DNA of 64,000 bases. It comes from Rhododendron vialii. Its lineage: Eukaryota > Streptophyta > Magnoliopsida > Ericales > Ericaceae. Made by a program: the position numbers and the translations under genes. Of the stretch, positions 1 through 41,122 are shown one piece after another (position 1 is the first letter of the stretch; each line of letters starts with the position of its first letter). The stretch spans positions 11,355,501-11,419,500 of the forward strand of contig NC_080566.1 in NCBI RefSeq assembly GCF_030253575.1. Direction: 5' to 3'. The notes under the pieces were generated by a model, which saw only the letters and a list, made by a program, of their open reading frames with translations, ran no database searches and was not told the origin of the DNA.

Positions 1-77
1 ACTCCGCAGTTAGGCGTGCTTGGGCGAGAGTAGTACTAGGATGGGTGACCCCCTGGGAAGTCCTCGTGTTGCACCCC
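1..77 (+). rRNA. 5S rRNA: 5S rRNA gene, partial (5' end outside window)
   Basis: Gene positions 43-119 only. A55G. Family a spacer; the next gene starts at 366. Confidence 0.92.
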
Positions 78-337
78 TTTTTCGTTTTTGTACGAAATCC
101 CTTCCCCGCCCCCCGTTCCCTTCTTTCATCCGGTCGCCGCAACTTCGGCTCATTCCGTCCGGATCTTCCCGGAGAGTTTTCGCAGCGATTTTTCGAGCTG
201 CGAGCCAAAATCGCCCCGTCAGCGGGCACGTTCGGCCGTAGCCATCCCTCAAACGGGATACGGGGTCCGGCCGGCGAGACGTGGCTGGGAAAGCCAGAGA
301 TAGAGTGAGCAGTGCCCGACGGGGCAGAAAAATGGAA

Positions 338-365
338 CAAAAGAATTGAAAGCGGAGTGCCTATG
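338..365 (+). promoter_or_regulatory. 5S upstream region, block A representative
   Basis: In Arabidopsis, 5S transcription needs an AT-rich box near -28, GC near -12 and C at -1. Here AAAAGAATT lies at -27 to -19 and GC at -14/-13, but -1 is G. The G at -1 is shared by all complete block A genes. Effect on initiation is inferred. Confidence 0.7.
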
Positions 366-414
366 GGGTGCGATCATACCAGCACTAATGCACCGGATCC
401 CATCAGAACTCCGC

Positions 415-425
415 AGTTAGGCGTG
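415..425 (+). promoter_or_regulatory. Box A of internal Pol III promoter, altered
   Basis: Gene positions 50-60 read AGTTAGGCGTG. The usual plant sequence is AGTTAAGCGTG; base 420 (gene position 55) is G in place of A throughout block A. Confidence 0.8.
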
Positions 426-431
426 CTTGGG

Positions 432-437
432 CGAGAG
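432..437 (+). promoter_or_regulatory. Intermediate element, block A representative
   Basis: Gene positions 67-72, CGAGAG, unchanged from the usual plant sequence. Confidence 0.7.
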
Positions 438-444
438 TAGTACT

Positions 445-454
445 AGGATGGGTG
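445..454 (+). promoter_or_regulatory. Box C, block A representative
   Basis: Gene positions 80-89, AGGATGGGTG, intact. This is the main TFIIIA-contact region in plants, so factor binding may persist even with an altered box A. Confidence 0.7.
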
Positions 455-484
455 ACCCCCTGGGAAGTCCTCGTGTTGCACCCC

Positions 485-496
485 TTTTTCGTTTTT
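485..496 (+). terminator. Pol III terminator, double T run
   Basis: TTTTT follows the last gene base at once, then CG, then TTTTT. The first run is the expected Pol III stop and the second a likely backup. In C-family units the second run is TTTT. Confidence 0.85.
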
Positions 497-619
497 GTAC
501 GAAATCCCTTCCCCGCCACCCGTTCCCTTCTTTCATCCGGTCGCCGCAACTTCGGCTCATTCCGTCCGGATCTTCCCGGAGAGTTTTCGCAGCGATTTTT
601 CGAGCTGCGAGCCAAAATC

Positions 620-732
620 GCCCCGTCAGCGGGCACGTTCTGCCGTAGCCATCCCTCCAACGGGATACGGGGTCCGGCCGGCGAGACGTGGCTGGGAAAG
701 CTAGAGATAGAGTGAGCAGTGCCCGACGGGGC
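620..732. repeat. Imperfect inverted repeat in the spacer (representative)
   Basis: Left arm GCCCCGTC-AGC-GGGCAC (620-636) is the reverse complement of GTGCCCGACGGGGC (719-732) apart from a 3-base insert; the loop is 82 bases. Inside the loop, TGGCT and AGCCA flank GGGAA as a small hairpin. Present in nearly all block A units. In Y and L units of block B the left arm is altered (GCCCCCTTCAGC). Confidence 0.6.
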
Positions 733-772
733 AGAAAAATGGAACAAAAGAATTGAAAGCGGAGTGCCTATG

Positions 773-891
773 GGGTGCGATCATACCAGCACTAATGCAC
801 CGGATCCCATCAGAACTCCGCAGTTAGGCGTGCTTGGGCGAGAGTAGTACTAGGATGGGTGACCCCCTGGGAAGTCCTCGTGTTGCACCCC
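773..891 (+). rRNA. 5S rRNA: 5S rRNA gene, A55G
   Basis: No further change. Family b; 407 bp to next. Confidence 0.94.
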
Positions 892-1179
892 TTTTTCGTT
901 TTTGTACGAAATCCCTTCCCCGCCCCCCGTTCCCTTCTTTCATCCGGTCGCCGCAACTTCGGCTCATTCCGTCCGGATCTTCCCGGAGAGTTTTCGCAGC
1001 GATTTTTCGAGCTGCGAGCCAAAATAGCCCCGTCAGCGGGCACGTTCGGCCGTAGCCATCCCTCCAACGGGATACGGGGTCCGGCCGGCGAGACGTGGCT
1101 GGGAAAGCCAGAGATAGAGTGAGCAGTGCCCGACGGGGCAGAAAAATGGAACAAAAGAATTGAAAGCGGAGTGCCTATG

Positions 1180-1298
1180 GGGTGCGATCATACCAGCACT
1201 AATGCACCGGATCCCATCAGAACTCCGCAGTTAGGCGTGCTTGGGCGAGAGTAGTACTAGGATGGGTGACCCCCTGGGAAGTCCTCGTGTTGCACCCC
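1180..1298 (+). rRNA. 5S rRNA: 5S rRNA gene, A55G
   Basis: Family E; 406 bp to next. Confidence 0.94.
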
Positions 1299-1585
1299 TT
1301 TTTCGTTTTTGAACGAAATCCCTTCCCCGCCCCCGTTCCCTTCTTTCATCCGGTCGCCGCAACTTCGGCTCATTCCGTTCGGATCTTCCCGGAGAGTTTT
1401 CGCAGCGATTTTTCGAGCTGCGAGCCAAAATCGCCCCGTCAGCGGGCACGTTCGGCCGTAGCCATCCCTCCAACGGGATACGGGGTCCGGCCGGCGAGAC
1501 GTGGCTGGGAAAGCCAGAGATAGAGTGAGCAGTGCCCGACGGGGCAGAAAAATGGAACAAAAGAATTGAAAGCGGAGTGCCTATG

Positions 1586-1704
1586 GGGTGCGATCATACC
1601 AGCACTAATGCACCGGATCCCATCAGAACTCCGCAGTTAGGCGTGCTTGGGCGAGAGTAGTACTAGGATGGGTGACCCCCTGGGAAGTCCTCGTGTTGCA
1701 CCCC
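1586..1704 (+). rRNA. 5S rRNA: 5S rRNA gene, A55G
   Basis: Family E with CCCTCCCCCG; 406 bp to next. Confidence 0.94.
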
Positions 1705-1991
1705 TTTTTCGTTTTTGAACGAAATCCCTCCCCCGCCCCCGTTCCCTTCTTTCATCCGGTCGCCGCAACTTCGGCTCATTCCGTTCGGATCTTCCCGGAG
1801 AGTTTTCGCAGCGATTTTTCGAGCTGCGAGCCAAAATCGCCCCGTCAGCGGGCACGTTCGGCCGTAGCCATCCCTCCAACGGGATACGGGGTCCGGCCGG
1901 CGAGACGTGGCTGGGAAAGCCAGAGATAGAGTGAGCAGTGCCCGACGGGGCAGAAAAATGGAACAAAAGAATTGAAAGCGGAGTTCCTATG

Positions 1992-2110
1992 GGGTGCGAT
2001 CATACCAGCACTAATGCACCGGATCCCATCAGAACTCCGCAGTTAGGCGTGCTTGGGCGAGAGTAGTACTAGGATGGGTGACCCCCTGGGAAGTCGTCGT
2101 GTTGCACCCC
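1992..2110 (+). rRNA. 5S rRNA: 5S rRNA gene, A55G and C105G
   Basis: First T-family gene; -7 is T. Spacer has GGATATGGGG. 407 bp to next. Confidence 0.93.
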
Positions 2111-2398
2111 TTTTTCGTTTTTGTACGAAATCCCTTCCCCGCCCCCCGTTCCCTTCTTTCATCCGGTCGCCGCAACTTCGGCTCATTCCGTCCGGATCTT
2201 CCCGGAGAGTTTTCGCAGCGATTTTTCGAGCTGCGAGCCAAAATAGCCCCGTCAGCGGGCACGTTCGGCCGTAGCCATCCCTCCAACGGGATATGGGGTC
2301 CGGCCGGCGAGACGTGGCTGGGAAAGCCAGAGATAGAGTGAGCAGTGCCCGACGGGGCAGAAAAATGGAACAAAAGAATTGAAAGCGGAGTGCCTATG

Positions 2399-2517
2399 GG
2401 GTGCGATCATACCAGCACTAATGCACCGGATCCCATCAGAACTCCGCAGTTAGGCGTGCTTGGGCGAGAGTAGTACTAGGATGGGTGACCCCCTGGGAAG
2501 TCGTCGTGTTGCACCCC
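2399..2517 (+). rRNA. 5S rRNA: 5S rRNA gene, A55G and C105G
   Basis: Family T'; 407 bp to next. Confidence 0.93.
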
Positions 2518-2805
2518 TTTTTCGTTTTTGTACGAAATCCCTTCCCCGCTCCCCGTTCCCTTCTTTCATCCGGTCGCCGCAACTTCGGCTCATTCCGTCC
2601 GGATCTTCCCGGAGAGTTTTCGCAGCGATTTTTCGAGCTGCGAGCCAAAATAGCCCCGTCAGCGGGCACGTTCGGCCGTAGCCATCCCTCCAACGGGATA
2701 CGGGGTCCGGCCGGCGAGACGTGGCTGGGAAAGCCAGAGATAGAGTGAGCAGTGCCCGACGGGGCAGAAAAATGGAACAAAAGAATTGAAAGCGGAGTGC
2801 CTATG

Positions 2806-2924
2806 GGGTGCGATCATACCAGCACTAATGCACCGGATCCCATCAGAACTCCGCAGTTAGGCGTGCTTGGGCGAGAGTAGTACTAGGATGGGTGACCCCC
2901 TGGGAAGTCCTCGTGTTGCACCCC
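2806..2924 (+). rRNA. 5S rRNA: 5S rRNA gene, A55G
   Basis: Family F; 407 bp to next. Confidence 0.94.
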
Positions 2925-3212
2925 TTTTTCGTTTTTGAACGAAATCCCTTCCCCGCCCCCCGTTCCCTTCTTTCATCCGGTCGCCGCAACTTCGGCTCAT
3001 TCCGTTCGGATCTTCCCGGAGAGTTTTCGCAGCGATTTTTCGAGCTGCGAGCCAAAATCGCCCCGTCAGCGGGCACGTTCGGCCGTAGCCATCCCTCCAA
3101 CGGGATACGGGGTCCGGCCGGCGAGACGTGGCTGGGAAAGCCAGAGATAGAGTGAGCAGTGCCCGACGGGGCAGAAAAATGGAACAAAAGAATTGAAAGC
3201 GGAGTGCCTATG

Positions 3213-3331
3213 GGGTGCGATCATACCAGCACTAATGCACCGGATCCCATCAGAACTCCGCAGTTAGGCGTGCTTGGGCGAGAGTAGTACTAGGATGGGT
3301 GACCCCCTGGGAAGTCCTCGTGTTGCACCCC
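3213..3331 (+). rRNA. 5S rRNA: 5S rRNA gene, A55G
   Basis: Family E; 406 bp to next. Confidence 0.94.
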
Positions 3332-3618
3332 TTTTTCGTTTTTGAACGAAATCCCTTCCCCGCCCCCGTTCCCTTCTTTCATCCGGTCGCCGCAACTTCG
3401 GCTCATTCCGTTCGGATCTTCCCGGAGAGTTTTCGCAGCGATTTTTCGAGCTGCGAGCCAAAATCGCCCCGTCAGCGGGCACGTTCGGCCGTAGCCATCC
3501 CTCCAACGGGATACGGGGTCCGGCCGGCGAGACGTGGCTGGGAAAGCCAGAGATAGAGTGAGCAGTGCCCGACGGGGCAGAAAAATGGAACAAAAGAATT
3601 GAAAGCGGAGTTCCTATG

Positions 3619-3737
3619 GGGTGCGATCATACCAGCACTAATGCACCGGATCCCATCAGAACTCCGCAGTTAGGCGTGCTTGGGCGAGAGTAGTACTAGG
3701 ATGGGTGACCCCCTGGGAAGTCGTCGTGTTGCACCCC
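3619..3737 (+). rRNA. 5S rRNA: 5S rRNA gene, A55G and C105G
   Basis: Family T; -7 is T. Confidence 0.93.
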
Positions 3738-4025
3738 TTTTTCGTTTTTGTACGAAATCCCTTCCCCGCCCCCCGTTCCCTTCTTTCATCCGGTCGCCGC
3801 AACTTCGGCTCATTCCGTCCGGATCTTCCCGGAGAGTTTTCGCAGCGATTTTTCGAGCTGCGAGCCAAAATAGCCCCGTCAGCGGGCACGTTCGGCCGTA
3901 GCCATCCCTCCAACGGGATACGGGGTCCGGCCGGCGAGACGTGGCTGGGAAAGCCAGAGATAGAGTGAGCAGTGCCCGACGGGGCAGAAAAATGGAACAA
4001 AAGAATTGAAAGCGGAGTGCCTATG

Positions 4026-4144
4026 GGGTGCGATCATACCAGCACTAATGCACCGGATCCCATCAGAACTCCGCAGTTAGGCGTGCTTGGGCGAGAGTAG
4101 TACTAGGATGGGTGACCCCCTGGGAAGTCGTCGTGTTGCACCCC
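4026..4144 (+). rRNA. 5S rRNA: 5S rRNA gene, A55G and C105G
   Basis: Family T' with GGTCTGGCC in the spacer. Confidence 0.93.
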
Positions 4145-4432
4145 TTTTTCGTTTTTGTACGAAATCCCTTCCCCGCTCCCCGTTCCCTTCTTTCATCCGG
4201 TCGCCGCAACTTCGGCTCATTCCGTCCGGATCTTCCCGGAGAGTTTTCGCAGCGATTTTTCGAGCTGCGAGCCAAAATAGCCCCGTCAGCGGGCACGTTC
4301 GGCCGTAGCCATCCCTCCAACGGGATACGGGGTCTGGCCGGCGAGACGTGGCTGGGAAAGCCAGAGATAGAGTGAGCAGTGCCCGACGGGGCAGAAAAAT
4401 GGAACAAAAGAATTGAAAGCGGAGTGCCTATG

Positions 4433-4551
4433 GGGTGCGATCATACCAGCACTAATGCACCGGATCCCATCAGAACTCCGCAGTTAGGCGTGCTTGGGCG
4501 AGAGTAGTACTAGGATGGGTGACCCCCTGGGAAGTCCTCGTGTTGCACCCC
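4433..4551 (+). rRNA. 5S rRNA: 5S rRNA gene, A55G
   Basis: Family F, ending in GAGTTCC. Confidence 0.94.
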
Positions 4552-4839
4552 TTTTTCGTTTTTGAACGAAATCCCTTCCCCGCCCCCCGTTCCCTTCTTT
4601 CATCCGGTCGCCGCAACTTCGGCTCATTCCGTTCGGATCTTCCCGGAGAGTTTTCGCAGCGATTTTTCGAGCTGCGAGCCAAAATCGCCCCGTCAGCGGG
4701 CACGTTCGGCCGTAGCCATCCCTCCAACGGGATACGGGGTCCGGCCGGCGAGACGTGGCTGGGAAAGCCAGAGATAGAGTGAGCAGTGCCCGACGGGGCA
4801 GAAAAATGGAACAAAAGAATTGAAAGCGGAGTTCCTATG

Positions 4840-4958
4840 GGGTGCGATCATACCAGCACTAATGCACCGGATCCCATCAGAACTCCGCAGTTAGGCGTGC
4901 TTGGGCGAGAGTAGTACTAGGATGGGTGACCCCCTGGGAAGTCGTCGTGTTGCACCCC
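4840..4958 (+). rRNA. 5S rRNA: 5S rRNA gene, A55G and C105G
   Basis: Family T, shortened to 405 bp by loss of two bases before the next gene; -7 is T. Confidence 0.93.
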
Positions 4959-5244
4959 TTTTTCGTTTTTGTACGAAATCCCTTCCCCGCCCCCCGTTCC
5001 CTTCTTTCATCCGGTCGCCGCAACTTCGGCTCATTCCGTCCGGATCTTCCCGGAGAGTTTTCGCAGCGATTTTTCGAGCTGCGAGCCAAAATAGCCCCGT
5101 CAGCGGGCACGTTCGGCCGTAGCCATCCCTCCAACGGGATACGGGGTCCGGCCGGCGAGACGTGGCTGGGAAAGCCAGAGATAGAGTGAGCAGTGCCCGA
5201 CGGGGCAGAAAAATGGAACAAAAGAATTGAAAGCAGTGCCTATG

Positions 5245-5363
5245 GGGTGCGATCATACCAGCACTAATGCACCGGATCCCATCAGAACTCCGCAGTTAGG
5301 CGTGCTTGGGCGAGAGTAGTACTAGGATGGGTGACCCCCTGGGAAGTCCTCGTGTTGCACCCC
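5245..5363 (+). rRNA. 5S rRNA: 5S rRNA gene, A55G, shortened upstream region
   Basis: Upstream reads AAAGCAGTGCC instead of AAAGCGGAGTGCC, which moves the AT-rich box 2 bp closer to the start. Family E, 406 bp. Confidence 0.93.
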
Positions 5364-5650
5364 TTTTTCGTTTTTGAACGAAATCCCTTCCCCGCCCCCG
5401 TTCCCTTCTTTCATCCGGTCGCCGCAACTTCGGCTCATTCCGTTCGGATCTTCCCGGAGAGTTTTCGCAGCGATTTTTCGAGCTGCGAGCCAAAATCGCC
5501 CCGTCAGCGGGCACGTTCGGCCGTAGCCATCCCTCCAACGGGATACGGGGTCCGGCCGGCGAGACGTGGCTGGGAAAGCCAGAGATAGAGTGAGCAGTGC
5601 CCGACGGGGCAGAAAAATGGAACAAAAGAATTGAAAGCGGAGTGCCTATG

Positions 5651-5769
5651 GGGTGCGATCATACCAGCACTAATGCACCGGATCCCATCAGAACTCCGCA
5701 GTTAGGCGTGCTTGGGCGAGAGTAGTACTAGGATGGGTGACCCCCTGGGAAGTCCTCGTGTTGCACCCC
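5651..5769 (+). rRNA. 5S rRNA: 5S rRNA gene, A55G
   Basis: Family E with CCCTCCCCCG. Confidence 0.94.
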
Positions 5770-6056
5770 TTTTTCGTTTTTGAACGAAATCCCTCCCCCG
5801 CCCCCGTTCCCTTCTTTCATCCGGTCGCCGCAACTTCGGCTCATTCCGTTCGGATCTTCCCGGAGAGTTTTCGCAGCGATTTTTCGAGCTGCGAGCCAAA
5901 ATCGCCCCGTCAGCGGGCACGTTCGGCCGTAGCCATCCCTCCAACGGGATACGGGGTCCGGCCGGCGAGACGTGGCTGGGAAAGCCAGAGATAGAGTGAG
6001 CAGTGCCCGACGGGGCAGAAAAATGGAACAAAAGAATTGAAAGCGGAGTTCCTATG

Positions 6057-6175
6057 GGGTGCGATCATACCAGCACTAATGCACCGGATCCCATCAGAAC
6101 TCCGCAGTTAGGCGTGCTTGGGCGAGAGTAGTACTAGGATGGGTGACCCCCTGGGAAGTCGTCGTGTTGCACCCC
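6057..6175 (+). rRNA. 5S rRNA: 5S rRNA gene, A55G and C105G
   Basis: Family T, 405 bp; duplicate of 4840. -7 is T. Confidence 0.93.
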
Positions 6176-6461
6176 TTTTTCGTTTTTGTACGAAATCCCT
6201 TCCCCGCCCCCCGTTCCCTTCTTTCATCCGGTCGCCGCAACTTCGGCTCATTCCGTCCGGATCTTCCCGGAGAGTTTTCGCAGCGATTTTTCGAGCTGCG
6301 AGCCAAAATAGCCCCGTCAGCGGGCACGTTCGGCCGTAGCCATCCCTCCAACGGGATACGGGGTCCGGCCGGCGAGACGTGGCTGGGAAAGCCAGAGATA
6401 GAGTGAGCAGTGCCCGACGGGGCAGAAAAATGGAACAAAAGAATTGAAAGCAGTGCCTATG

Positions 6462-6580
6462 GGGTGCGATCATACCAGCACTAATGCACCGGATCCCATC
6501 AGAACTCCGCAGTTAGGCGTGCTTGGGCGAGAGTAGTACTAGGATGGGTGACCCCCTGGGAAGTCCTCGTGTTGCACCCC
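6462..6580 (+). rRNA. 5S rRNA: 5S rRNA gene, A55G, shortened upstream region
   Basis: Same 2 bp upstream loss as 5245, by duplication. Family E. Confidence 0.93.
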
Positions 6581-6867
6581 TTTTTCGTTTTTGAACGAAA
6601 TCCCTTCCCCGCCCCCGTTCCCTTCTTTCATCCGGTCGCCGCAACTTCGGCTCATTCCGTTCGGATCTTCCCGGAGAGTTTTCGCAGCGATTTTTCGAGC
6701 TGCGAGCCAAAATCGCCCCGTCAGCGGGCACGTTCGGCCGTAGCCATCCCTCCAACGGGATACGGGGTCCGGCCGGCGAGACGTGGCTGGGAAAGCCAGA
6801 GATAGAGTGAGCAGTGCCCGACGGGGCAGAAAAATGGAACAAAAGAATTGAAAGCGGAGTGCCTATG

Positions 6868-6986
6868 GGGTGCGATCATACCAGCACTAATGCACCGGAT
6901 CCCATCAGAACTCCGCAGTTAGGCGTGCTTGGGCGAGAGTAGTACTAGGATGGGTGACCCCCTGGGAAGTCCTCGTGTTGCACCCC
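6868..6986 (+). rRNA. 5S rRNA: 5S rRNA gene, A55G
   Basis: Family E with CCCTCCCCCG; duplicate of 5651. Confidence 0.94.
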
Positions 6987-7273
6987 TTTTTCGTTTTTGA
7001 ACGAAATCCCTCCCCCGCCCCCGTTCCCTTCTTTCATCCGGTCGCCGCAACTTCGGCTCATTCCGTTCGGATCTTCCCGGAGAGTTTTCGCAGCGATTTT
7101 TCGAGCTGCGAGCCAAAATCGCCCCGTCAGCGGGCACGTTCGGCCGTAGCCATCCCTCCAACGGGATACGGGGTCCGGCCGGCGAGACGTGGCTGGGAAA
7201 GCCAGAGATAGAGTGAGCAGTGCCCGACGGGGCAGAAAAATGGAACAAAAGAATTGAAAGCGGAGTTCCTATG

Positions 7274-7392
7274 GGGTGCGATCATACCAGCACTAATGCA
7301 CCGGATCCCATCAGAACTCCGCAGTTAGGCGTGCTTGGGCGAGAGTAGTACTAGGATGGGTGACCCCCTGGGAAGTCGTCGTGTTGCACCCC
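7274..7392 (+). rRNA. 5S rRNA: 5S rRNA gene, A55G and C105G
   Basis: Family T; spacer has GGCTTGGAAAG; -7 is T. Confidence 0.93.
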
Positions 7393-7680
7393 TTTTTCGT
7401 TTTTGTACGAAATCCCTTCCCCGCCCCCCGTTCCCTTCTTTCATCCGGTCGCCGCAACTTCGGCTCATTCCGTCCGGATCTTCCCGGAGAGTTTTCGCAG
7501 CGATTTTTCGAGCTGCGAGCCAAAATAGCCCCGTCAGCGGGCACGTTCGGCCGTAGCCATCCCTCCAACGGGATACGGGGTCCGGCCGGCGAGACGTGGC
7601 TTGGAAAGCCAGAGATAGAGTGAGCAGTGCCCGACGGGGCAGAAAAATGGAACAAAAGAATTGAAAGCGGAGTGCCTATG

Positions 7681-7799
7681 GGGTGCGATCATACCAGCAC
7701 TAATGCACCGGATCCCATCAGAACTCCGCAGTTAGGCGTGCTGGGGCGAGAGTAGTACTAGGATGGGTGACCCCCTGGGAAGTCGTCGTGTTGCACCCC
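7681..7799 (+). rRNA. 5S rRNA: 5S rRNA gene, A55G, T63G and C105G
   Basis: T63G (GTGCTGGGGCG) lies between box A and the intermediate element. Family T'. Confidence 0.92.
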
Positions 7800-8087
7800 T
7801 TTTTCGTTTTTGTACGAAATCCCTTCCCCGCTCCCCGTTCCCTTCTTTCATCCGGTCGCCGCAACTTCGGCTCATTCCGTCCGGATCTTCCCGGAGAGTT
7901 TTCGCAGCGATTTTTCGAGCTGCGAGCCAAAATAGCCCCGTCAGCGGGCACGTTCGGCCGTAGCCATCCCTCCAACGGGATACGGGGTCCGGCCGGCGAG
8001 ACGTGGCTGGGAAAGCCAGAGATAGAGTGAGCAGTGCCCGACGGGGCAGAAAAATGGAACAAAAGAATTGAAAGCGGAGTGCCTATG

Positions 8088-8206
8088 GGGTGCGATCATA
8101 CCAGCACTAATGCACCGGATCCCATCAGAACTCCGCAGTTAGGCGTGCTTGGGCGAGAGTAGTACTAGGATGGGTGACCCCCTGGGAAGTCCTCGTGTTG
8201 CACCCC
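8088..8206 (+). rRNA. 5S rRNA: 5S rRNA gene, A55G
   Basis: Family F. Confidence 0.94.
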
Positions 8207-8494
8207 TTTTTCGTTTTTGAACGAAATCCCTTCCCCGCCCCCCGTTCCCTTCTTTCATCCGGTCGCCGCAACTTCGGCTCATTCCGTTCGGATCTTCCCG
8301 GAGAGTTTTCGCAGCGATTTTTCGAGCTGCGAGCCAAAATCGCCCCGTCAGCGGGCACGTTCGGCCGTAGCCATCCCTCCAACGGGATACGGGGTCCGGC
8401 CGGCGAGACGTGGCTGGGAAAGCCAGAGATAGAGTGAGCAGTGCCCGACGGGGCAGAAAAATGGAACAAAAGAATTGAAAGCGGAGTGCCTATG

Positions 8495-8613
8495 GGGTGC
8501 GATCATACCAGCACTAATGCACCGGATCCCATCAGAACTCCGCAGTTAGGCGTGCTTGGGCGAGAGTAGTACTAGGATGGGTGACCCCCTGGGAAGTCCT
8601 CGTGTTGCACCCC
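8495..8613 (+). rRNA. 5S rRNA: 5S rRNA gene, A55G
   Basis: Family F with GGGCACTTTCGG, a marker also at 10122, 10529, 11342, 12156 and 12969. Confidence 0.94.
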
Positions 8614-8901
8614 TTTTTCGTTTTTGAACGAAATCCCTTCCCCGCCCCCCGTTCCCTTCTTTCATCCGGTCGCCGCAACTTCGGCTCATTCCGTTCGGAT
8701 CTTCCCGGAGAGTTTTCGCAGCGATTTTTCGAGCTGCGAGCCAAAATCGCCCCGTCAGCGGGCACTTTCGGCCGTAGCCATCCCTCCAACGGGATACGGG
8801 GTCCGGCCGGCGAGACGTGGCTGGGAAAGCCAGAGATAGAGTGAGCAGTGCCCGACGGGGCAGAAAAATGGAACAAAAGAATTGAAAGCGGAGTGCCTAT
8901 G

Positions 8902-9020
8902 GGGTGCGATCATACCAGCACTAATGCACCGGATCCCATCAGAACTCCGCAGTTAGGCGTGCTTGGGCGAGAGTAGTACTAGGATGGGTGACCCCCTGGG
9001 AAGTCCTCGTGTTGCACCCC
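8902..9020 (+). rRNA. 5S rRNA: 5S rRNA gene, A55G
   Basis: Family E. Confidence 0.94.
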
Positions 9021-9307
9021 TTTTTCGTTTTTGAACGAAATCCCTTCCCCGCCCCCGTTCCCTTCTTTCATCCGGTCGCCGCAACTTCGGCTCATTCCGT
9101 TCGGATCTTCCCGGAGAGTTTTCGCAGCGATTTTTCGAGCTGCGAGCCAAAATCGCCCCGTCAGCGGGCACGTTCGGCCGTAGCCATCCCTCCAACGGGA
9201 TACGGGGTCCGGCCGGCGAGACGTGGCTGGGAAAGCCAGAGATAGAGTGAGCAGTGCCCGACGGGGCAGAAAAATGGAACAAAAGAATTGAAAGCGGAGT
9301 TCCTATG

Positions 9308-9426
9308 GGGTGCGATCATACCAGCACTAATGCACCGGATCCCATCAGAACTCCGCAGTTAGGCGTGCTTGGGCGAGAGTAGTACTAGGATGGGTGACCC
9401 CCTGGGAAGTCGTCGTGTTGCACCCC
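9308..9426 (+). rRNA. 5S rRNA: 5S rRNA gene, A55G and C105G
   Basis: Family T; -7 is T. Confidence 0.93.
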
Positions 9427-9714
9427 TTTTTCGTTTTTGTACGAAATCCCTTCCCCGCCCCCCGTTCCCTTCTTTCATCCGGTCGCCGCAACTTCGGCTC
9501 ATTCCGTCCGGATCTTCCCGGAGAGTTTTCGCAGCGATTTTTCGAGCTGCGAGCCAAAATAGCCCCGTCAGCGGGCACGTTCGGCCGTAGCCATCCCTCC
9601 AACGGGATACGGGGTCCGGCCGGCGAGACGTGGCTGGGAAAGCCAGAGATAGAGTGAGCAGTGCCCGACGGGGCAGAAAAATGGAACAAAAGAATTGAAA
9701 GCGGAGTGCCTATG

Positions 9715-9833
9715 GGGTGCGATCATACCAGCACTAATGCACCGGATCCCATCAGAACTCCGCAGTTAGGCGTGCTTGGGCGAGAGTAGTACTAGGATGG
9801 GTGACCCCCTGGGAAGTCCTCGTGTTGCACCCC
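9715..9833 (+). rRNA. 5S rRNA: 5S rRNA gene, A55G
   Basis: Mosaic unit: gene and ATCGCCCC as family a, but CGCTCCCC and GGTCTGGCC as T'. Confidence 0.94.
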
Positions 9834-30461: not shown

Positions 30462-30580
30462 GGGTGCGATCATACCAGCACTAATGCACCGGATCCCATC
30501 AGAACTCCGCAGTTAGGCGTGCTTGGGCGAGAGTAGTACTAGGATGGGTGACCCCCTGGGAAGTCCTCGTGTTGCACCCC
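30462..30580 (+). rRNA. 5S rRNA: 5S rRNA gene, A55G
   Basis: Family a. Confidence 0.94.
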
Positions 30581-30868
30581 TTTTTCGTTTTTGTACGAAA
30601 TCCCTTCCCCGCCCCCCGTTCCCTTCTTTCATCCGGTCGCCGCAACTTCGGCTCATTCCGTCCGGATCTTCCCGGAGAGTTTTCGCAGCGATTTTTCGAG
30701 CTGCGAGCCAAAATCGCCCCGTCAGCGGGCACGTTCGGCCGTAGCCATCCCTCCAACGGGATACGGGGTCCGGCCGGCGAGACGTGGCTGGGAAAGCCAG
30801 AGATAGAGTGAGCAGTGCCCGACGGGGCAGAAAAATGGAACAAAAGAATTGAAAGCGGAGTGCCTATG

Positions 30869-30987
30869 GGGTGCGATCATACCAGCACTAATGCACCGGA
30901 TCCCATCAGAACTCCGCAGTTAGGCGTGCTTGGGCGAGAGTAGTACTAGGATGGGTGACCCCCTGGGAAGTCCTCGTGTTGCACCCC
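30869..30987 (+). rRNA. 5S rRNA: 5S rRNA gene, A55G
   Basis: Family C with CAGTTCCCGAC, partner of 29648. Confidence 0.94.
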
Positions 30988-31275
30988 TTTTTCGTTTTCG
31001 TACGAAATCCCTTCCCCGCCCCCCGTTCCCTTCTTTCATCCGGTCGCCGCAACTTCGGCTCATTCCGTCCGGATCTTCCCGGAGAGATTTCGCAGCGATT
31101 TTTCGAGCTGCGAGCCAAAATAGCCCCGTCAGCGGGCACGTTCGGCCGTAGCCATCCCTCCAACGGGATACGGGGTCCGGCCGGCGAGACGTGGCTGGGA
31201 AAGCCAGAGATAGAGTGAGCAGTTCCCGACGGGGCAGAAAAATGGAACAAAAGAATTGAAAGCGGAGTGCCTATG

Positions 31276-31394
31276 GGGTGCGATCATACCAGCACTAATG
31301 CACCGGATCCCATCAGAACTCCGCAGTTAGGCGTGCTTGGGCGAGAGTAGTACTAGGATGGGTGACCCCCTGGGAAGTCGTCGTGTTGCACCCC
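31276..31394 (+). rRNA. 5S rRNA: 5S rRNA gene, A55G and C105G
   Basis: Family T. Confidence 0.93.
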
Positions 31395-31682
31395 TTTTTC
31401 GTTTTTGTACGAAATCCCTTCCCCGCCCCCCGTTCCCTTCTTTCATCCGGTCGCCGCAACTTCGGCTCATTCCGTCCGGATCTTCCCGGAGAGTTTTCGC
31501 AGCGATTTTTCGAGCTGCGAGCCAAAATAGCCCCGTCAGCGGGCACGTTCGGCCGTAGCCATCCCTCCAACGGGATACGGGGTCCGGCCGGCGAGACGTG
31601 GCTGGGAAAGCCAGAGATAGAGTGAGCAGTGCCCGACGGGGCAGAAAAATGGAACAAAAGAATTGAAAGCGGAGTGCCTATG

Positions 31683-31801
31683 GGGTGCGATCATACCAGC
31701 ACTAATGCACCGGATCCCATCAGAACTCCGCAGTTAGGCGTGCTTGGGCGAGAGTAGTACTAGGATGGGTGACCCCCTGGGAAGTCCTCGTGTTGCACCC
31801 C
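31683..31801 (+). rRNA. 5S rRNA: 5S rRNA gene, A55G
   Basis: Family E, the last E unit of the window. Confidence 0.94.
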
Positions 31802-32088
31802 TTTTTCGTTTTTGAACGAAATCCCTTCCCCGCCCCCGTTCCCTTCTTTCATCCGGTCGCCGCAACTTCGGCTCATTCCGTTCGGATCTTCCCGGAGAGT
31901 TTTCGCAGCGATTTTTCGAGCTGCGAGCCAAAATCGCCCCGTCAGCGGGCACGTTCGGCCGTAGCCATCCCTCCAACGGGATACGGGGTCCGGCCGGCGA
32001 GACGTGGCTGGGAAAGCCAGAGATAGAGTGAGCAGTGCCCGACGGGGCAGAAAAATGGAACAAAAGAATTGAAAGCGGAGTTCCTATG

Positions 32089-32207
32089 GGGTGCGATCAT
32101 ACCAGCACTAATGCACCGGATCCCATCAGAACTCCGCAGTTAGGCGTGCTTGGGCGAGAGTAGTACTAGGATGGGTGACCCCCTGGGAAGTCGTCGTGTT
32201 GCACCCC
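32089..32207 (+). rRNA. 5S rRNA: 5S rRNA gene, A55G and C105G
   Basis: Family T with AAAGCAAGAG; -7 is T. Confidence 0.93.
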
Positions 32208-32495
32208 TTTTTCGTTTTTGTACGAAATCCCTTCCCCGCCCCCCGTTCCCTTCTTTCATCCGGTCGCCGCAACTTCGGCTCATTCCGTCCGGATCTTCCC
32301 GGAGAGTTTTCGCAGCGATTTTTCGAGCTGCGAGCCAAAATAGCCCCGTCAGCGGGCACGTTCGGCCGTAGCCATCCCTCCAACGGGATACGGGGTCCGG
32401 CCGGCGAGACGTGGCTGGGAAAGCAAGAGATAGAGTGAGCAGTGCCCGACGGGGCAGAAAAATGGAACAAAAGAATTGAAAGCGGAGTGCCTATG

Positions 32496-32614
32496 GGGTG
32501 CGATCATACCAGCACTAATGCACCGGATCCCATCAGAACTCCGCAGTTAGGCGTGCTTGGGCGAGAGTAGTACTAGGATGGGTGACCCCCTGGGAAGTCC
32601 TCGTGTTGCACCCC
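32496..32614 (+). rRNA. 5S rRNA: 5S rRNA gene, A55G
   Basis: C-like spacer (GAGATTTCGC) with an uncut TTTTT second run. Confidence 0.94.
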
Positions 32615-32902
32615 TTTTTCGTTTTTGTACGAAATCCCTTCCCCGCCCCCCGTTCCCTTCTTTCATCCGGTCGCCGCAACTTCGGCTCATTCCGTCCGGA
32701 TCTTCCCGGAGAGATTTCGCAGCGATTTTTCGAGCTGCGAGCCAAAATAGCCCCGTCAGCGGGCACGTTCGGCCGTAGCCATCCCTCCAACGGGATACGG
32801 GGTCCGGCCGGCGAGACGTGGCTGGGAAAGCCAGAGATAGAGTGAGCAGTGCCCGACGGGGCAGAAAAATGGAACAAAAGAATTGAAAGCGGAGTGCCTA
32901 TG

Positions 32903-33021
32903 GGGTGCGATCATACCAGCACTAATGCACCGGATCCCATCAGAACTCCGCAGTTAGGCGTGCTTGGGCGAGAGTAGTACTAGGATGGGTGACCCCCTGG
33001 GAAGTCGTCGTGTTGCACCCC
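32903..33021 (+). rRNA. 5S rRNA: 5S rRNA gene, A55G and C105G
   Basis: Mosaic: T-type gene followed by a C-family spacer. Confidence 0.93.
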
Positions 33022-33309
33022 TTTTTCGTTTTCGTACGAAATCCCTTCCCCGCCCCCCGTTCCCTTCTTTCATCCGGTCGCCGCAACTTCGGCTCATTCC
33101 GTCCGGATCTTCCCGGAGAGATTTCGCAGCGATTTTTCGAGCTGCGAGCCAAAATAGCCCCGTCAGCGGGCACGTTCGGCCGTAGCCATCCCTCCAACGG
33201 GATACGGGGTCCGGCCGGCGAGACGTGGCTGGGAAAGCCAGAGATAGAGTGAGCAGTGCCCGACGGGGCAGAAAAATGGAACAAAAGAATTGAAAGCGGA
33301 GTGCCTATG

Positions 33310-33428
33310 GGGTGCGATCATACCAGCACTAATGCACCGGATCCCATCAGAACTCCGCAGTTGGGCGTGCTTGGGCGAGAGTAGTACTAGGATGGGTGAC
33401 CCCCTGGGAAGTCCTCGTGTTGCACCCC
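33310..33428 (+). rRNA. 5S rRNA: 5S rRNA gene, A54G and A55G
   Basis: Box A reads AGTTGGGCGTG. Family C with CCCCTGTTCC. Confidence 0.92.
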
Positions 33429-33716
33429 TTTTTCGTTTTCGTACGAAATCCCTTCCCCGCCCCCTGTTCCCTTCTTTCATCCGGTCGCCGCAACTTCGGC
33501 TCATTCCGTCCGGATCTTCCCGGAGAGATTTCGCAGCGATTTTTCGAGCTGCGAGCCAAAATAGCCCCGTCAGCGGGCACGTTCGGCCGTAGCCATCCCT
33601 CCAACGGGATACGGGGTCCGGCCGGCGAGACGTGGCTGGGAAAGCCAGAGATAGAGTGAGCAGTGCCCGACGGGGCAGAAAAATGGAACAAAAGAATTGA
33701 AAGCGGAGTGCCTATG

Positions 33717-33835
33717 GGGTGCGATCATACCAGCACTAATGCACCGGATCCCATCAGAACTCCGCAGTTAGGCGTGCTTGGGCGAGAGTAGTACTAGGAT
33801 GGGTGACCCCCTGGGAAGTCGTCGTGTTGCACCCC
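33717..33835 (+). rRNA. 5S rRNA: 5S rRNA gene, A55G and C105G
   Basis: T gene with ATCGCCCC spacer (T/a mosaic). Confidence 0.93.
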
Positions 33836-34123
33836 TTTTTCGTTTTTGTACGAAATCCCTTCCCCGCCCCCCGTTCCCTTCTTTCATCCGGTCGCCGCAA
33901 CTTCGGCTCATTCCGTCCGGATCTTCCCGGAGAGTTTTCGCAGCGATTTTTCGAGCTGCGAGCCAAAATCGCCCCGTCAGCGGGCACGTTCGGCCGTAGC
34001 CATCCCTCCAACGGGATACGGGGTCCGGCCGGCGAGACGTGGCTGGGAAAGCCAGAGATAGAGTGAGCAGTGCCCGACGGGGCAGAAAAATGGAACAAAA
34101 GAATTGAAAGCGGAGTGCCTATG

Positions 34124-34242
34124 GGGTGCGATCATCCCAGCACTAATGCACCGGATCCCATCAGAACTCCGCAGTTAGGCGTGCTTGGGCGAGAGTAGTA
34201 CTAGGATGGGTGACCCCCTGGGAAGTCGTCGTGTTGCACCCC
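34124..34242 (+). rRNA. 5S rRNA: 5S rRNA gene, A13C, A55G and C105G
   Basis: GATCATCCCAG is private. T spacer with GAGATTTCGC, CATAATAG and GAAGTGCTCGAC. Confidence 0.91.
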
Positions 34243-34530
34243 TTTTTCGTTTTTGTACGAAATCCCTTCCCCGCCCCCCGTTCCCTTCTTTCATCCGGTC
34301 GCCGCAACTTCGGCTCATTCCGTCCGGATCTTCCCGGAGAGATTTCGCAGCGATTTTTCGAGCTGCGAGCCATAATAGCCCCGTCAGCGGGCACGTTCGG
34401 CCGTAGCCATCCCTCCAACGGGATACGGGGTCCGGCCGGCGAGACGTGGCTGAGAAAGCCAGAGATAGAGTGAGAAGTGCTCGACGGGGCAGAAAAATGG
34501 AACAAAAGAATTGAAAGCGGAGTGCCTATG

Positions 34531-34649
34531 GGGTGCGATCATACCAGCACTAATGCACCGGATCCCATCAGAACTCCGCAGTTAGGCGCGCTTGGGCGAG
34601 AGTAGTACTAGGATGGGTGACCCCCTGGGAAGTCCTCGTGTTGCACCCC
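34531..34649 (+). rRNA. 5S rRNA: 5S rRNA gene, A55G and T59C
   Basis: Family a with the GAAGTGCTCGAC tail. Confidence 0.92.
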
Positions 34650-34937
34650 TTTTTCGTTTTTGTACGAAATCCCTTCCCCGCCCCCCGTTCCCTTCTTTCA
34701 TCCGGTCGCCGCAACTTCGGCTCATTCCGTCCGGATCTTCCCGGAGAGTTTTCGCAGCGATTTTTCGAGCTGCGAGCCAAAATCGCCCCGTCAGCGGGCA
34801 CGTTCGGCCGTAGCCATCCCTCCAACGGGATACGGGGTCCGGCCGGCGAGACGTGGCTGAGAAAGCCAGAGATAGAGTGAGAAGTGCTCGACGGGGCAGA
34901 AAAATGGAACAAAAGAATTGAAAGCGGAGTGCCTATG

Positions 34938-35056
34938 GGGTGCGATCATACCAGCACTAATGCACCGGATCCCATCAGAACTCCGCAGTTAGGCGTGCTT
35001 GGGCGAGAGTAGTACTAGGATGGGTGACCCCCTGGGAAGTCCTCGTGTTGCACCCC
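34938..35056 (+). rRNA. 5S rRNA: 5S rRNA gene, A55G
   Basis: Family a with TTTCATTCGG and GGGGTAGAAA. Confidence 0.94.
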
Positions 35057-35344
35057 TTTTTCGTTTTTGTACGAAATCCCTTCCCCGCCCCCCGTTCCCT
35101 TCTTTCATTCGGTCGCCGCAACTTCGGCTCATTCCGTCCGGATCTTCCCGGAGAGTTTTCGCAGCGATTTTTCGAGCTGCGAGCCAAAATCGCCCCGTCA
35201 GCGGGCACGTTCGGCCGTAGCCATCCCTCCAACGGGATACGGGGTCCGGCCGGCGAGACGTGGCTGGGAAAGCCAGAGATAGAGTGAGCAGTGCCCGACG
35301 GGGTAGAAAAATGGAACAAAAGAATTGAAAGCGGAGTGCCTATG

Positions 35345-35463
35345 GGGTGCGATCATACCAGCACTAATGCACCGGATCCCATCAGAACTCCGCAGTTAGG
35401 CGTGCTTGGGCGAGAGTAGTACTAGGATGGGTGACCCCCTGGGAAGTCCTCGTGTTGCACCCC
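35345..35463 (+). rRNA. 5S rRNA: 5S rRNA gene, A55G
   Basis: Family C with GGGGCATAAAA. Confidence 0.94.
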
Positions 35464-35751
35464 TTTTTCGTTTTCGTACGAAATCCCTTCCCCGCCCCCC
35501 GTTCCCTTCTTTCATCCGGTCGCCGCAACTTCGGCTCATTCCGTCCGGATCTTCCCGGAGAGATTTCGCAGCGATTTTTCGAGCTGCGAGCCAAAATAGC
35601 CCCGTCAGCGGGCACGTTCGGCCGTAGCCATCCCTCCAACGGGATACGGGGTCCGGCCGGCGAGACGTGGCTGGGAAAGCCAGAGATAGAGTGAGCAGTG
35701 CCCGACGGGGCATAAAAATGGAACAAAAGAATTGAAAGCGGAGTGCCTATG

Positions 35752-35870
35752 GGGTGCGATCATACCAGCACTAATGCACCGGATCCCATCAGAACTCCGC
35801 AGTTAGGCGTGCTTGGGCGAGAGTAGTACTAGGATGGGTGACCCCCTGGGAAGTCCTCGTGTTGCACCCC
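35752..35870 (+). rRNA. 5S rRNA: 5S rRNA gene, A55G
   Basis: Family C. Confidence 0.94.
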
Positions 35871-36158
35871 TTTTTCGTTTTCGTACGAAATCCCTTCCCC
35901 GCCCCCCGTTCCCTTCTTTCATCCGGTCGCCGCAACTTCGGCTCATTCCGTCCGGATCTTCCCGGAGAGATTTCGCAGCGATTTTTCGAGCTGCGAGCCA
36001 AAATAGCCCCGTCAGCGGGCACGTTCGGCCGTAGCCATCCCTCCAACGGGATACGGGGTCCGGCCGGCGAGACGTGGCTGGGAAAGCCAGAGATAGAGTG
36101 AGCAGTGCCCGACGGGGCAGAAAAATGGAACAAAAGAATTGAAAGCGGAGTGCCTATG

Positions 36159-36277
36159 GGGTGCGATCATACCAGCACTAATGCACCGGATCCCATCAGA
36201 ACTCCGCAGTTAGGCGTGCTTGGGCGAGAGTAGTACTAGGATGGGTGACCCCCTGGGAAGTCCTCGTGTTGCACCCC
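36159..36277 (+). rRNA. 5S rRNA: 5S rRNA gene, A55G
   Basis: Partner of 32496: C-like with an uncut second T run. Confidence 0.94.
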
Positions 36278-36565
36278 TTTTTCGTTTTTGTACGAAATCC
36301 CTTCCCCGCCCCCCGTTCCCTTCTTTCATCCGGTCGCCGCAACTTCGGCTCATTCCGTCCGGATCTTCCCGGAGAGATTTCGCAGCGATTTTTCGAGCTG
36401 CGAGCCAAAATAGCCCCGTCAGCGGGCACGTTCGGCCGTAGCCATCCCTCCAACGGGATACGGGGTCCGGCCGGCGAGACGTGGCTGGGAAAGCCAGAGA
36501 TAGAGTGAGCAGTGCCCGACGGGGCAGAAAAATGGAACAAAAGAATTGAAAGCGGAGTGCCTATG

Positions 36566-36684
36566 GGGTGCGATCATACCAGCACTAATGCACCGGATCC
36601 CATCAGAACTCCGCAGTTAGGCGTGCTTGGGCGAGAGTAGTACTAGGATGGGTGACCCCCTGGGAAGTCGTCGTGTTGCACCCC
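36566..36684 (+). rRNA. 5S rRNA: 5S rRNA gene, A55G and C105G
   Basis: Partner of 32903: T gene, C spacer. Confidence 0.93.
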
Positions 36685-36972
36685 TTTTTCGTTTTCGTAC
36701 GAAATCCCTTCCCCGCCCCCCGTTCCCTTCTTTCATCCGGTCGCCGCAACTTCGGCTCATTCCGTCCGGATCTTCCCGGAGAGATTTCGCAGCGATTTTT
36801 CGAGCTGCGAGCCAAAATAGCCCCGTCAGCGGGCACGTTCGGCCGTAGCCATCCCTCCAACGGGATACGGGGTCCGGCCGGCGAGACGTGGCTGGGAAAG
36901 CCAGAGATAGAGTGAGCAGTGCCCGACGGGGCAGAAAAATGGAACAAAAGAATTGAAAGCGGAGTGCCTATG

Positions 36973-37091
36973 GGGTGCGATCATACCAGCACTAATGCAC
37001 CGGATCCCATCAGAACTCCGCAGTTGGGCGTGCTTGGGCGAGAGTAGTACTAGGATGGGTGACCCCCTGGGAAGTCCTCGTGTTGCACCCC
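36973..37091 (+). rRNA. 5S rRNA: 5S rRNA gene, A54G and A55G
   Basis: Partner of 33310, with the same double change in box A. Confidence 0.92.
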
Positions 37092-37379
37092 TTTTTCGTT
37101 TTCGTACGAAATCCCTTCCCCGCCCCCTGTTCCCTTCTTTCATCCGGTCGCCGCAACTTCGGCTCATTCCGTCCGGATCTTCCCGGAGAGATTTCGCAGC
37201 GATTTTTCGAGCTGCGAGCCAAAATAGCCCCGTCAGCGGGCACGTTCGGCCGTAGCCATCCCTCCAACGGGATACGGGGTCCGGCCGGCGAGACGTGGCT
37301 GGGAAAGCCAGAGATAGAGTGAGCAGTGCCCGACGGGGCAGAAAAATGGAACAAAAGAATTGAAAGCGGAGTGCCTATG

Positions 37380-37497
37380 GGGTGCGATCATACCAGCACT
37401 AATGCACCGGATCCCATCAGAACTCCGCAGTTAGGCGTGCTTGGGCGAGAGTAGTACTAGGATGGGTGACCCCCTGGGAAGTCCTCGTGTTGCACCC
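37380..37497 (+). rRNA. 5S rRNA: 5S rRNA gene, A55G, one C shorter
   Basis: 118 bp: ends GCACCC before T5. TTTTCGTACG with ATCGCCCC; GAAGTGCTCGAC tail. 406 bp to next. Confidence 0.92.
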
Positions 37498-37785
37498 TTT
37501 TTCGTTTTCGTACGAAATCCCTTCCCCGCCCCCCGTTCCCTTCTTTCATCCGGTCGCCGCAACTTCGGCTCATTCCGTCCGGATCTTCCCGGAGAGTTTT
37601 CGCAGCGATTTTTCGAGCTGCGAGCCAAAATCGCCCCGTCAGCGGGCACGTTCGGCCGTAGCCATCCCTCCAACGGGATACGGGGTCCGGCCGGCGAGAC
37701 GTGGCTGGGAAAGCCAGAGATAGAGTGAGAAGTGCTCGACGGGGCAGAAAAATGGAACAAAAGAATTGAAAGCGGAGTGCCTATG

Positions 37786-37904
37786 GGGTGCGATCATACC
37801 AGCACTAATGCACCGGATCCCATCAGAACTCCGCAGTTAGGCGTGCTTGGGCGAGAGTAGTACTAGGATGGGTGACCCCCTGGGAAGTCGTCGTGTTGCA
37901 CCCC
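37786..37904 (+). rRNA. 5S rRNA: 5S rRNA gene, A55G and C105G
   Basis: Partner of 34124 without A13C. Confidence 0.93.
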
Positions 37905-38192
37905 TTTTTCGTTTTTGTACGAAATCCCTTCCCCGCCCCCCGTTCCCTTCTTTCATCCGGTCGCCGCAACTTCGGCTCATTCCGTCCGGATCTTCCCGGA
38001 GAGATTTCGCAGCGATTTTTCGAGCTGCGAGCCATAATAGCCCCGTCAGCGGGCACGTTCGGCCGTAGCCATCCCTCCAACGGGATACGGGGTCCGGCCG
38101 GCGAGACGTGGCTGAGAAAGCCAGAGATAGAGTGAGAAGTGCTCGACGGGGCAGAAAAATGGAACAAAAGAATTGAAAGCGGAGTGCCTATG

Positions 38193-38311
38193 GGGTGCGA
38201 TCATACCAGCACTAATGCACCGGATCCCATCAGAACTCCGCAGTTAGGCGCGCTTGGGCGAGAGTAGTACTAGGATGGGTGACCCCCTGGGAAGTCCTCG
38301 TGTTGCACCCC
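38193..38311 (+). rRNA. 5S rRNA: 5S rRNA gene, A55G and T59C
   Basis: C-like spacer with ATCGCCCC. Confidence 0.92.
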
Positions 38312-38599
38312 TTTTTCGTTTTCGTACGAAATCCCTTCCCCGCCCCCCGTTCCCTTCTTTCATCCGGTCGCCGCAACTTCGGCTCATTCCGTCCGGATCT
38401 TCCCGGAGAGATTTCGCAGCGATTTTTCGAGCTGCGAGCCAAAATCGCCCCGTCAGCGGGCACGTTCGGCCGTAGCCATCCCTCCAACGGGATACGGGGT
38501 CCGGCCGGCGAGACGTGGCTGGGAAAGCCAGAGATAGAGTGAGCAGTGCCCGACGGGGCAGAAAAATGGAACAAAAGAATTGAAAGCGGAGTGCCTATG

Positions 38600-38717
38600 G
38601 GGTGCGATCATACCAGCACTAATGCACCGGATCCCATCAGAACTCCGCAGTTAGGCGTGCTTGGGCGAGAGTAGTACTAGGATGGGTGACCCCCTGGGAA
38701 GTCCTCGTGTTGCACCC
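38600..38717 (+). rRNA. 5S rRNA: 5S rRNA gene, A55G, one C shorter
   Basis: As 37380, including the GAAGTGCTCGAC tail. Confidence 0.92.
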
Positions 38718-39005
38718 TTTTTCGTTTTCGTACGAAATCCCTTCCCCGCCCCCCGTTCCCTTCTTTCATCCGGTCGCCGCAACTTCGGCTCATTCCGTCC
38801 GGATCTTCCCGGAGAGTTTTCGCAGCGATTTTTCGAGCTGCGAGCCAAAATCGCCCCGTCAGCGGGCACGTTCGGCCGTAGCCATCCCTCCAACGGGATA
38901 CGGGGTCCGGCCGGCGAGACGTGGCTGGGAAAGCCAGAGATAGAGTGAGAAGTGCTCGACGGGGCAGAAAAATGGAACAAAAGAATTGAAAGCGGAGTGC
39001 CTATG

Positions 39006-39124
39006 GGGTGCGATCATACCAGCACTAATGCACCGGATCCCATCAGAACTCCGCAGTTAGGCGCGCTTGGGCGAGAGTAGTACTAGGATGGGTGACCCCC
39101 TGGGAAGTCCTCGTGTTGCACCCC
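39006..39124 (+). rRNA. 5S rRNA: 5S rRNA gene, A55G and T59C
   Basis: Duplicate of 38193. Confidence 0.92.
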
Positions 39125-39412
39125 TTTTTCGTTTTCGTACGAAATCCCTTCCCCGCCCCCCGTTCCCTTCTTTCATCCGGTCGCCGCAACTTCGGCTCAT
39201 TCCGTCCGGATCTTCCCGGAGAGATTTCGCAGCGATTTTTCGAGCTGCGAGCCAAAATCGCCCCGTCAGCGGGCACGTTCGGCCGTAGCCATCCCTCCAA
39301 CGGGATACGGGGTCCGGCCGGCGAGACGTGGCTGGGAAAGCCAGAGATAGAGTGAGCAGTGCCCGACGGGGCAGAAAAATGGAACAAAAGAATTGAAAGC
39401 GGAGTGCCTATG

Positions 39413-39530
39413 GGGTGCGATCATACCAGCACTAATGCACCGGATCCCATCAGAACTCCGCAGTTAGGCGTGCTTGGGCGAGAGTAGTACTAGGATGGGT
39501 GACCCCCTGGGAAGTCCTCGTGTTGCACCC
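39413..39530 (+). rRNA. 5S rRNA: 5S rRNA gene, A55G, one C shorter
   Basis: Duplicate of 38600 with the usual CAGTGCCCGAC tail. Confidence 0.92.
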
Positions 39531-39818
39531 TTTTTCGTTTTCGTACGAAATCCCTTCCCCGCCCCCCGTTCCCTTCTTTCATCCGGTCGCCGCAACTTCG
39601 GCTCATTCCGTCCGGATCTTCCCGGAGAGTTTTCGCAGCGATTTTTCGAGCTGCGAGCCAAAATCGCCCCGTCAGCGGGCACGTTCGGCCGTAGCCATCC
39701 CTCCAACGGGATACGGGGTCCGGCCGGCGAGACGTGGCTGGGAAAGCCAGAGATAGAGTGAGCAGTGCCCGACGGGGCAGAAAAATGGAACAAAAGAATT
39801 GAAAGCGGAGTGCCTATG

Positions 39819-39937
39819 GGGTGCGATCATACCAGCACTAATGCACCGGATCCCATCAGAACTCCGCAGTTAGGCGTGCTTGGGCGAGAGTAGTACTAGG
39901 ATGGGTGACCCCCTGGGAAGTCGTCGTGTTGCACCCC
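39819..39937 (+). rRNA. 5S rRNA: 5S rRNA gene, A55G and C105G, last of block A
   Basis: The gene and most of the spacer are block A type, but the spacer has CCGTATC (40021), a marker of block B Y units, and ends CTATC, so the next gene has C at -1. A boundary mosaic. Confidence 0.93.
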
Positions 39938-40225
39938 TTTTTCGTTTTTGTACGAAATCCCTTCCCCGCCCCCCGTTCCCTTCTTTCATCCGGTCGCCGC
40001 AACTTCGGCTCATTCCGTCCGTATCTTCCCGGAGAGTTTTCGCAGCGATTTTTCGAGCTGCGAGCCAAAATCGCCCCGTCAGCGGGCACGTTCGGCCGTA
40101 GCCATCCCTCCAACGGGATACGGGGTCCGGCCGGCGAGACGTGGCTGGGAAAGCCAGAGATAGAGTGAGCAGTGCCCGACGGGGCAGAAAAATGGAACAA
40201 AAGAATTGAAAGCGGAGTGCCTATC

Positions 40226-41043: not shown

Positions 41044-41092
41044 GGGTGCGATCATACCAGCACTAATGCACCGGATCCCATCAGAACTCCGC

Positions 41093-41103: not shown

Positions 41104-41109
41104 CTTGGG

Positions 41110-41115: not shown

Positions 41116-41122
41116 TAGTACT

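Follow-up and report, generated by a model that had tools for sequence, protein, structure and literature searches.

Results

Organization of the 5S rRNA gene array

The window (the whole 64,000-bp stretch of Rhododendron vialii DNA analysed here) is tiled on the plus strand by 158 matches to the Rfam 5S rRNA family (5S_rRNA, RF00001, searched over the whole window), which form a single tandem array in one orientation, repeating about every 407 bp. All 158 are at or above the gathering score, the RF00001 scores among the 150 matches listed are about 102-114 bits, and the covariance model matches over the full gene, which places these genes in the plant-type 5S family RF00001. The array is made up of two blocks, A and B. 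Every complete gene was scored against the canonical block-B sequence, and all 156 complete units were aligned. The features referred to below are the following:

1..40225, plus strand: block A, 98 complete 5S units and a partial gene (1-77), with G55, G at -1 and TG at spacer positions 328-329
365, plus strand: position -1 of the representative block-A gene, G replacing C
366..484, plus strand: representative block-A 5S gene, with A55G as its sole departure from the canonical sequence (108.5 bits; predicted fold -41.4 kcal/mol)
415..429, plus strand: box A of the representative block-A gene (gene positions 50-64), AGTTAGGCGTGCTTG, with G55 at 420
40148..40225, plus strand: junction interval, with A-type spacer (TG) up to 40147 and the first B-type base, a C, at 40225
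40226..64000, plus strand: block B, 59 complete 5S genes with A55, C at -1 and CA at unit positions 328-329 of the spacer
40637..40755, plus strand: representative canonical block-B 5S gene (113.8 bits)
45541..48726, plus strand: short-spacer units with degenerate 5S genes (substitution sets, 397-bp units)

The complete block-A genes (n = 98) have their starts at 366 to 39819, and the gene at window position 1 is partial, beginning at gene position 43 and also carrying G55. A previous sequence-only reading of this DNA had described a 40-kb block in which all 99 genes have G at position 55 and all 98 complete ones have G at -1, next to a block with the usual bases at both sites. These base assignments were confirmed in full, i.e., G55 in the 98 complete genes and the partial first gene, G at -1 in 98/98 complete block-A genes, and A55 together with C at -1 in 59/59 complete block-B genes. 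The block itself is also real, and its 40.2 kb is to be taken as a lower bound since the array continues past both ends of the window. Block-B units are 397, 407, 408 or 411 bp long.

The G at -1 of block A holds up to the junction, where unit 39819 has A-type spacer to at least 40147 but the B-type C as its last base. As read from these marker bases, the A/B switch lies inside 40148-40225, and the pattern is that expected from one crossover, conversion or mutation. The gene at 40226, the first in block B, has C20G.

Fixed differences and common descent

Four differences are fixed between the two blocks in the alignment of 156 complete units, at gene position 55, spacer positions 328 and 329, and position -1. 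In 97 units the linkage among the four is complete; the junction unit 39819 is the exception. Because the four differences travel together from unit to unit, the 99/99 count for G55 is explained by shared descent from one founder followed by amplification. An origin by 99 independent mutations is ruled out by this perfect linkage, and reading the count as a measure of selection was also rejected, as the uniformity marks common descent. The mean pairwise distance between units is 5.0 within block A, 15.9 within block B and 19.8 between the blocks. Both blocks contain exact multi-unit repeats: one of 2,393 bp in block A (offset 813), and in block B one of 6,854 bp (offset 7,253) and one of 3,048 bp (offsets 5,638 and 12,891). 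Sub-blocks of this sort are a known and ordinary result of tandem-array evolution.

Promoter elements in the two blocks

Box A, which we take to be gene positions 50-64 with limits carried over from Arabidopsis, has the block-A sequence given above in 87/98 genes. The IE (CGAGAG) and box C (AGGATGGGTG, the canonical plant box C motif; PMC10853983) are identical in 157/157 complete genes, and a T-run terminator (TTTTT or TTTT) stands right after the gene in all genes of both blocks. Apart from position 55, 45 of the 98 complete block-A genes are canonical; none of the 98 has an internal indel, and in three of them the 3'-terminal C/T run is one base shorter. In the usual 5S/tRNA alignment, 5S position 55 presumably aligns with the R in TRGYNNARNNG, the consensus for box A, and G55, being a purine at this R, is therefore not outside the box A consensus.

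Upstream of the gene, neither block has the Arabidopsis-type TATATA at -28; both have CAAAAG at -28 to -23, and GC is present at -14/-13 in both. Since TATATA is missing equally in A and B, the Arabidopsis external rules do not simply transfer to this array. The Arabidopsis-type C at -1 is found in 59/59 block-B genes and 0/98 block-A genes. This C is among the Arabidopsis external promoter elements, and in Solanum more than half of the species have T, not C, at -1 (PMC9043955). The location of position 55 within box A and the role of C at -1 in Arabidopsis, as put forward in the previous reading, agree with the literature. None of the papers covered by our search described a substitution at 5S position 55.

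The TG at -2/-1 of block A could shift initiation one base upstream, and such a shift, if true, would yield a 120-nt block-A 5S RNA starting GGGGUGCG (one extra G). In the fold prediction, the 120-nt form with the extra 5' G folds with one more helix-I pair. The G at -1 (365 in the representative gene, and present in all block-A genes) could pair with C119 and so lengthen helix I, if initiation takes place one base early.

Position 55 in the 5S RNA

The predicted minimum free energy (MFE) and structure are the same for A55 and G55 (-41.4 kcal/mol for both), and disruption of the fold by G55 was rejected on the basis of the identical MFE. In the Rfam structure A55 is unpaired and lies within the UAAG internal loop (loop B). 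With A55G the covariance-model score falls by 5.3 bits (from 113.8 to 108.5), which is the biggest penalty of any single-base substitution in the window among the matches listed; the near-invariance of the loop-B UAAG accounts for this cost. When prokaryotic 5S matches were fetched by the shared context with R allowed at the homologous position, the base was A in 121/121, and a sample of 101 genomes from one bacterial phylum gave A in all 35 of its matches; the G form gave 0 matches in 398 genomes of that single phylum. Bacterial 5S genes are not known to have a box A or other internal promoter. The conservation of A55 in such genes thus places the constraint at least partly on the RNA, and by these comparisons G55 is questionable as RNA at least as much as it is as promoter. 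The previous reading treated position 55, which is also a loop-B residue of the RNA, as a promoter base only.

Variation within block A

Distinct block-A variants occupy 9/119 gene sites versus 33/288 spacer sites (p = 0.28), and the diversity (pi) is 0.0068 in the gene versus 0.0126 in the spacer (permutation p = 0.18). Gene variants are not significantly rarer than spacer variants, and purifying selection on block A is therefore not demonstrated. Box A, 15 bp long, holds five of the ten block-A genic differences, variable or fixed (post hoc, p about 0.005). The five are A50G, A54G, A55G, T59C and T63G, four of which are transitions; the IE and box C have none. Among derived variants, C>T/G>A changes account for 15/41 in block A versus 6/39 in block B (Fisher p = 0.042), and 9/15 of those in block A are at CHG sites versus 49/236 (21%) expected (p = 0.001). 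The block-A C>T/G>A changes show no excess at CG sites (4/15, p = 1.0), and the spacer CpG observed/expected ratio is 1.21 in A and 1.24 in B. The share of C>T/G>A changes and their CHG bias hint at an excess of cytosine deamination in block A, a faint signal that would mildly favour silencing; the hints of decay, deamination and clustering are small and post hoc, and come from several tests tried.

Judged by lost fold or genic indels, block A is not a pseudogene block, as it has the canonical fold and no internal indels. The substitution C105G is present in 40/98 block-A genes (e.g., the gene at 2096) and in 0 block-B genes; with it the predicted fold energy is -39.2 instead of -41.4 kcal/mol, and the Rfam score is lower by 4.1 bits.

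Degenerate genes and repeats in block B

The use of block B as a clean competent control was rejected, because 22/59 of its genes deviate from the canonical sequence that the other 37/59 have. A50T, which is inside box A, occurs in 8/59 block-B genes. Up to four substitutions per gene are found in and beside the 397-bp units, where the eight A50T genes lie, and the degenerate sets are A50T/C91T, A11C/C118G, T24G/G25T/G30A/C46T, C95A, and G7T/G30A/G97T. The segment 45541-48726 that contains them recurs at 51179-54364 and 58432-61617, and partly at 55594 and 62847. The three copies are near-identical, with the degenerate sets in the same order, and the 397-bp units carry a 10-bp spacer deletion. 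In the 397-bp class pi is higher in the gene (0.021) than in the spacer (0.0126), and the genes at 47526 and 48320, the two deviants tested by fold prediction, lose the canonical fold. By these measures the genes of the 397-bp class are more degenerate than any in block A, and they look like amplified pseudogenes.

The intervals 49894-56747 and 57147-64000 are the two copies of the 6,854-bp repeat; they match with zero mismatches and reach the window end. Such a repeat would stem either from the duplication of several units very recently or from a duplication made in assembly.

Discussion

On balance we think it probable, judging from the sequence, that the window is internal to one angiosperm-type 5S rDNA array in which block A represents an alternative 5S ribotype, homogenised into a sub-array whose genes are structurally intact and transcribed to some degree. 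From what was observed here, namely the sequence, the block structure, the linkage, the fold and the conservation of A55 in prokaryotic 5S RNA, we infer an amplification mechanism in which a founder unit would have gained A55G, the G at -1 and, linked to them, the two changes in the spacer. Unequal exchange together with multi-unit segmental duplication would then have raised it to at least 99 copies, and later exchange with block B would have been rare. The resulting 5S RNA would have a G in the conserved internal loop B and possibly a 5' end shifted by one G. Since the IE, box C and terminator are present and the fold is canonical, transcription of block A is most likely retained in some degree, with an expression level that is possibly reduced. 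We also infer a reduced contribution of these genes, in which the G55 RNA would be under-represented in ribosomes to some degree.

The previous reading had gone further and proposed that block A is weak or silent through its altered box A and -1 base, and is repressed beside a competent block. We regard this as possible, but would hold it only tentatively. There are precedents for it: Arabidopsis minor 5S genes with one or a few positions changed are repressed in the wild type (PMC2754527), and the type 2 genes of Cardamine amara, whose promoters are changed, give way to type 1 genes in allopolyploids (PMC13087485). In block A the genic variants cluster in box A, and the slight C>T/G>A excess, with 9/15 at CHG sites, is as chromomethylase-type heterochromatin would give. 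However, the supporting statistics are small, post hoc and selected from several tried, CG sites have no excess, and the spacer CpG observed/expected ratio is no lower in A than in B. G55 fits the presumed R of the box A consensus, TATATA is missing from both blocks alike, the block-A genes and terminators are intact along with the IE, box C and fold, and the supposedly competent neighbour has its 22 deviants among 59 genes. Most Solanum species, more than half of them, have a base other than C at -1 (PMC9043955), and the type 2 of C. amara, although altered in box A, IE and box C, supplies all of the diploid 5S RNA (PMC13087485).

Two further explanations concern the origin of the blocks and their use. 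We consider it improbable that the block structure is an assembly artefact, in which blocks from different loci, subgenomes or haplotypes were joined in near-identical repeats and the perfect repeats of block B are assembly duplications. The near-identical repeat array, the single sharp junction and the exact 6,854-bp and 3,048-bp repeats would fit such an artefact, and in Arabidopsis a given 5S array comes out at very different sizes in independent assemblies (PMC9757041). Against it, the two unit types are close relatives with equal frame and spacer, and the junction unit, which combines A-type spacer with C at -1, has the form of a clean recombinant, not of a frame break. Functional specialisation, with the G55 ribotype serving as a regulated tissue- or stage-specific 5S RNA, appears very improbable to us. 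Animals have oocyte and somatic 5S classes, and a large homogeneous block of intact genes with a linked change at -1 would suit such a class here, but unequal exchange yields homogeneity without selection, and A55 is otherwise invariant where checked.

Returning to block A as an intact, probably transcribed sub-array, G55 offers a ready single-base tag for the expression of about 100 contiguous genes beside a sequence-matched control block. A read-out of G55 would be a direct test of the weight that box A, the -1 base and loop B each carry in a natural context, and would tell gene-by-gene from block-by-block silencing of 5S genes. It seems unlikely to us that an altered block of at least 99 genes with G55 has been kept homogeneous and is either silenced as a unit or a distinct ribosomal 5S class.

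Comparison with known 5S ribotypes

Arabidopsis thaliana has several thousand tandem 5S copies in pericentromeric arrays, and its major and minor genes, as in the array described here, are genes within an array that are set apart by one or a few positions; the Arabidopsis minor genes were shown to be repressed (PMC2754527). In block A the variant makes up 99 or more copies in one contiguous block. The type 2 of C. amara is likewise a homogenised 5S ribotype with internal-promoter substitutions that include box A, but it has seven substitutions over box A, IE and box C and belongs to a separate species genome (PMC13087485), whereas block A has one gene substitution plus the change at -1 and shares its array with the canonical type. 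In the diploid no 5S genes other than type 2 are active, and type 2 is repressed solely in allopolyploids (PMC13087485); internal-promoter changes thus need not silence a 5S gene.

In Solanum 5S intergenic spacers (IGS), the C at -1 is also replaced in many functional 5S families, although there the replacement is T, a pyrimidine, and in block A it is G, a purine (PMC9043955). Landoltia punctata has an A-to-G change at the box A edge that is tied to one spacer class in a mosaic array; that change is at +50 and was found in two clones (PMC8264772). The array on maize Mo17 chromosome 2 resembles the present one in its single orientation and regionally dominant genotypes, which were read as recent amplification at one end; the maize grouping made use of common SNPs and indels of the units, with no claim about promoter elements (PMC10335936). 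Maize and Arabidopsis both have a like intra-array or inter-locus ribotype structure (PMC10335936, PMC9757041). In the light of these systems, block A can be regarded as a further case of ribotype blocks, one that affects an unusually conserved base.
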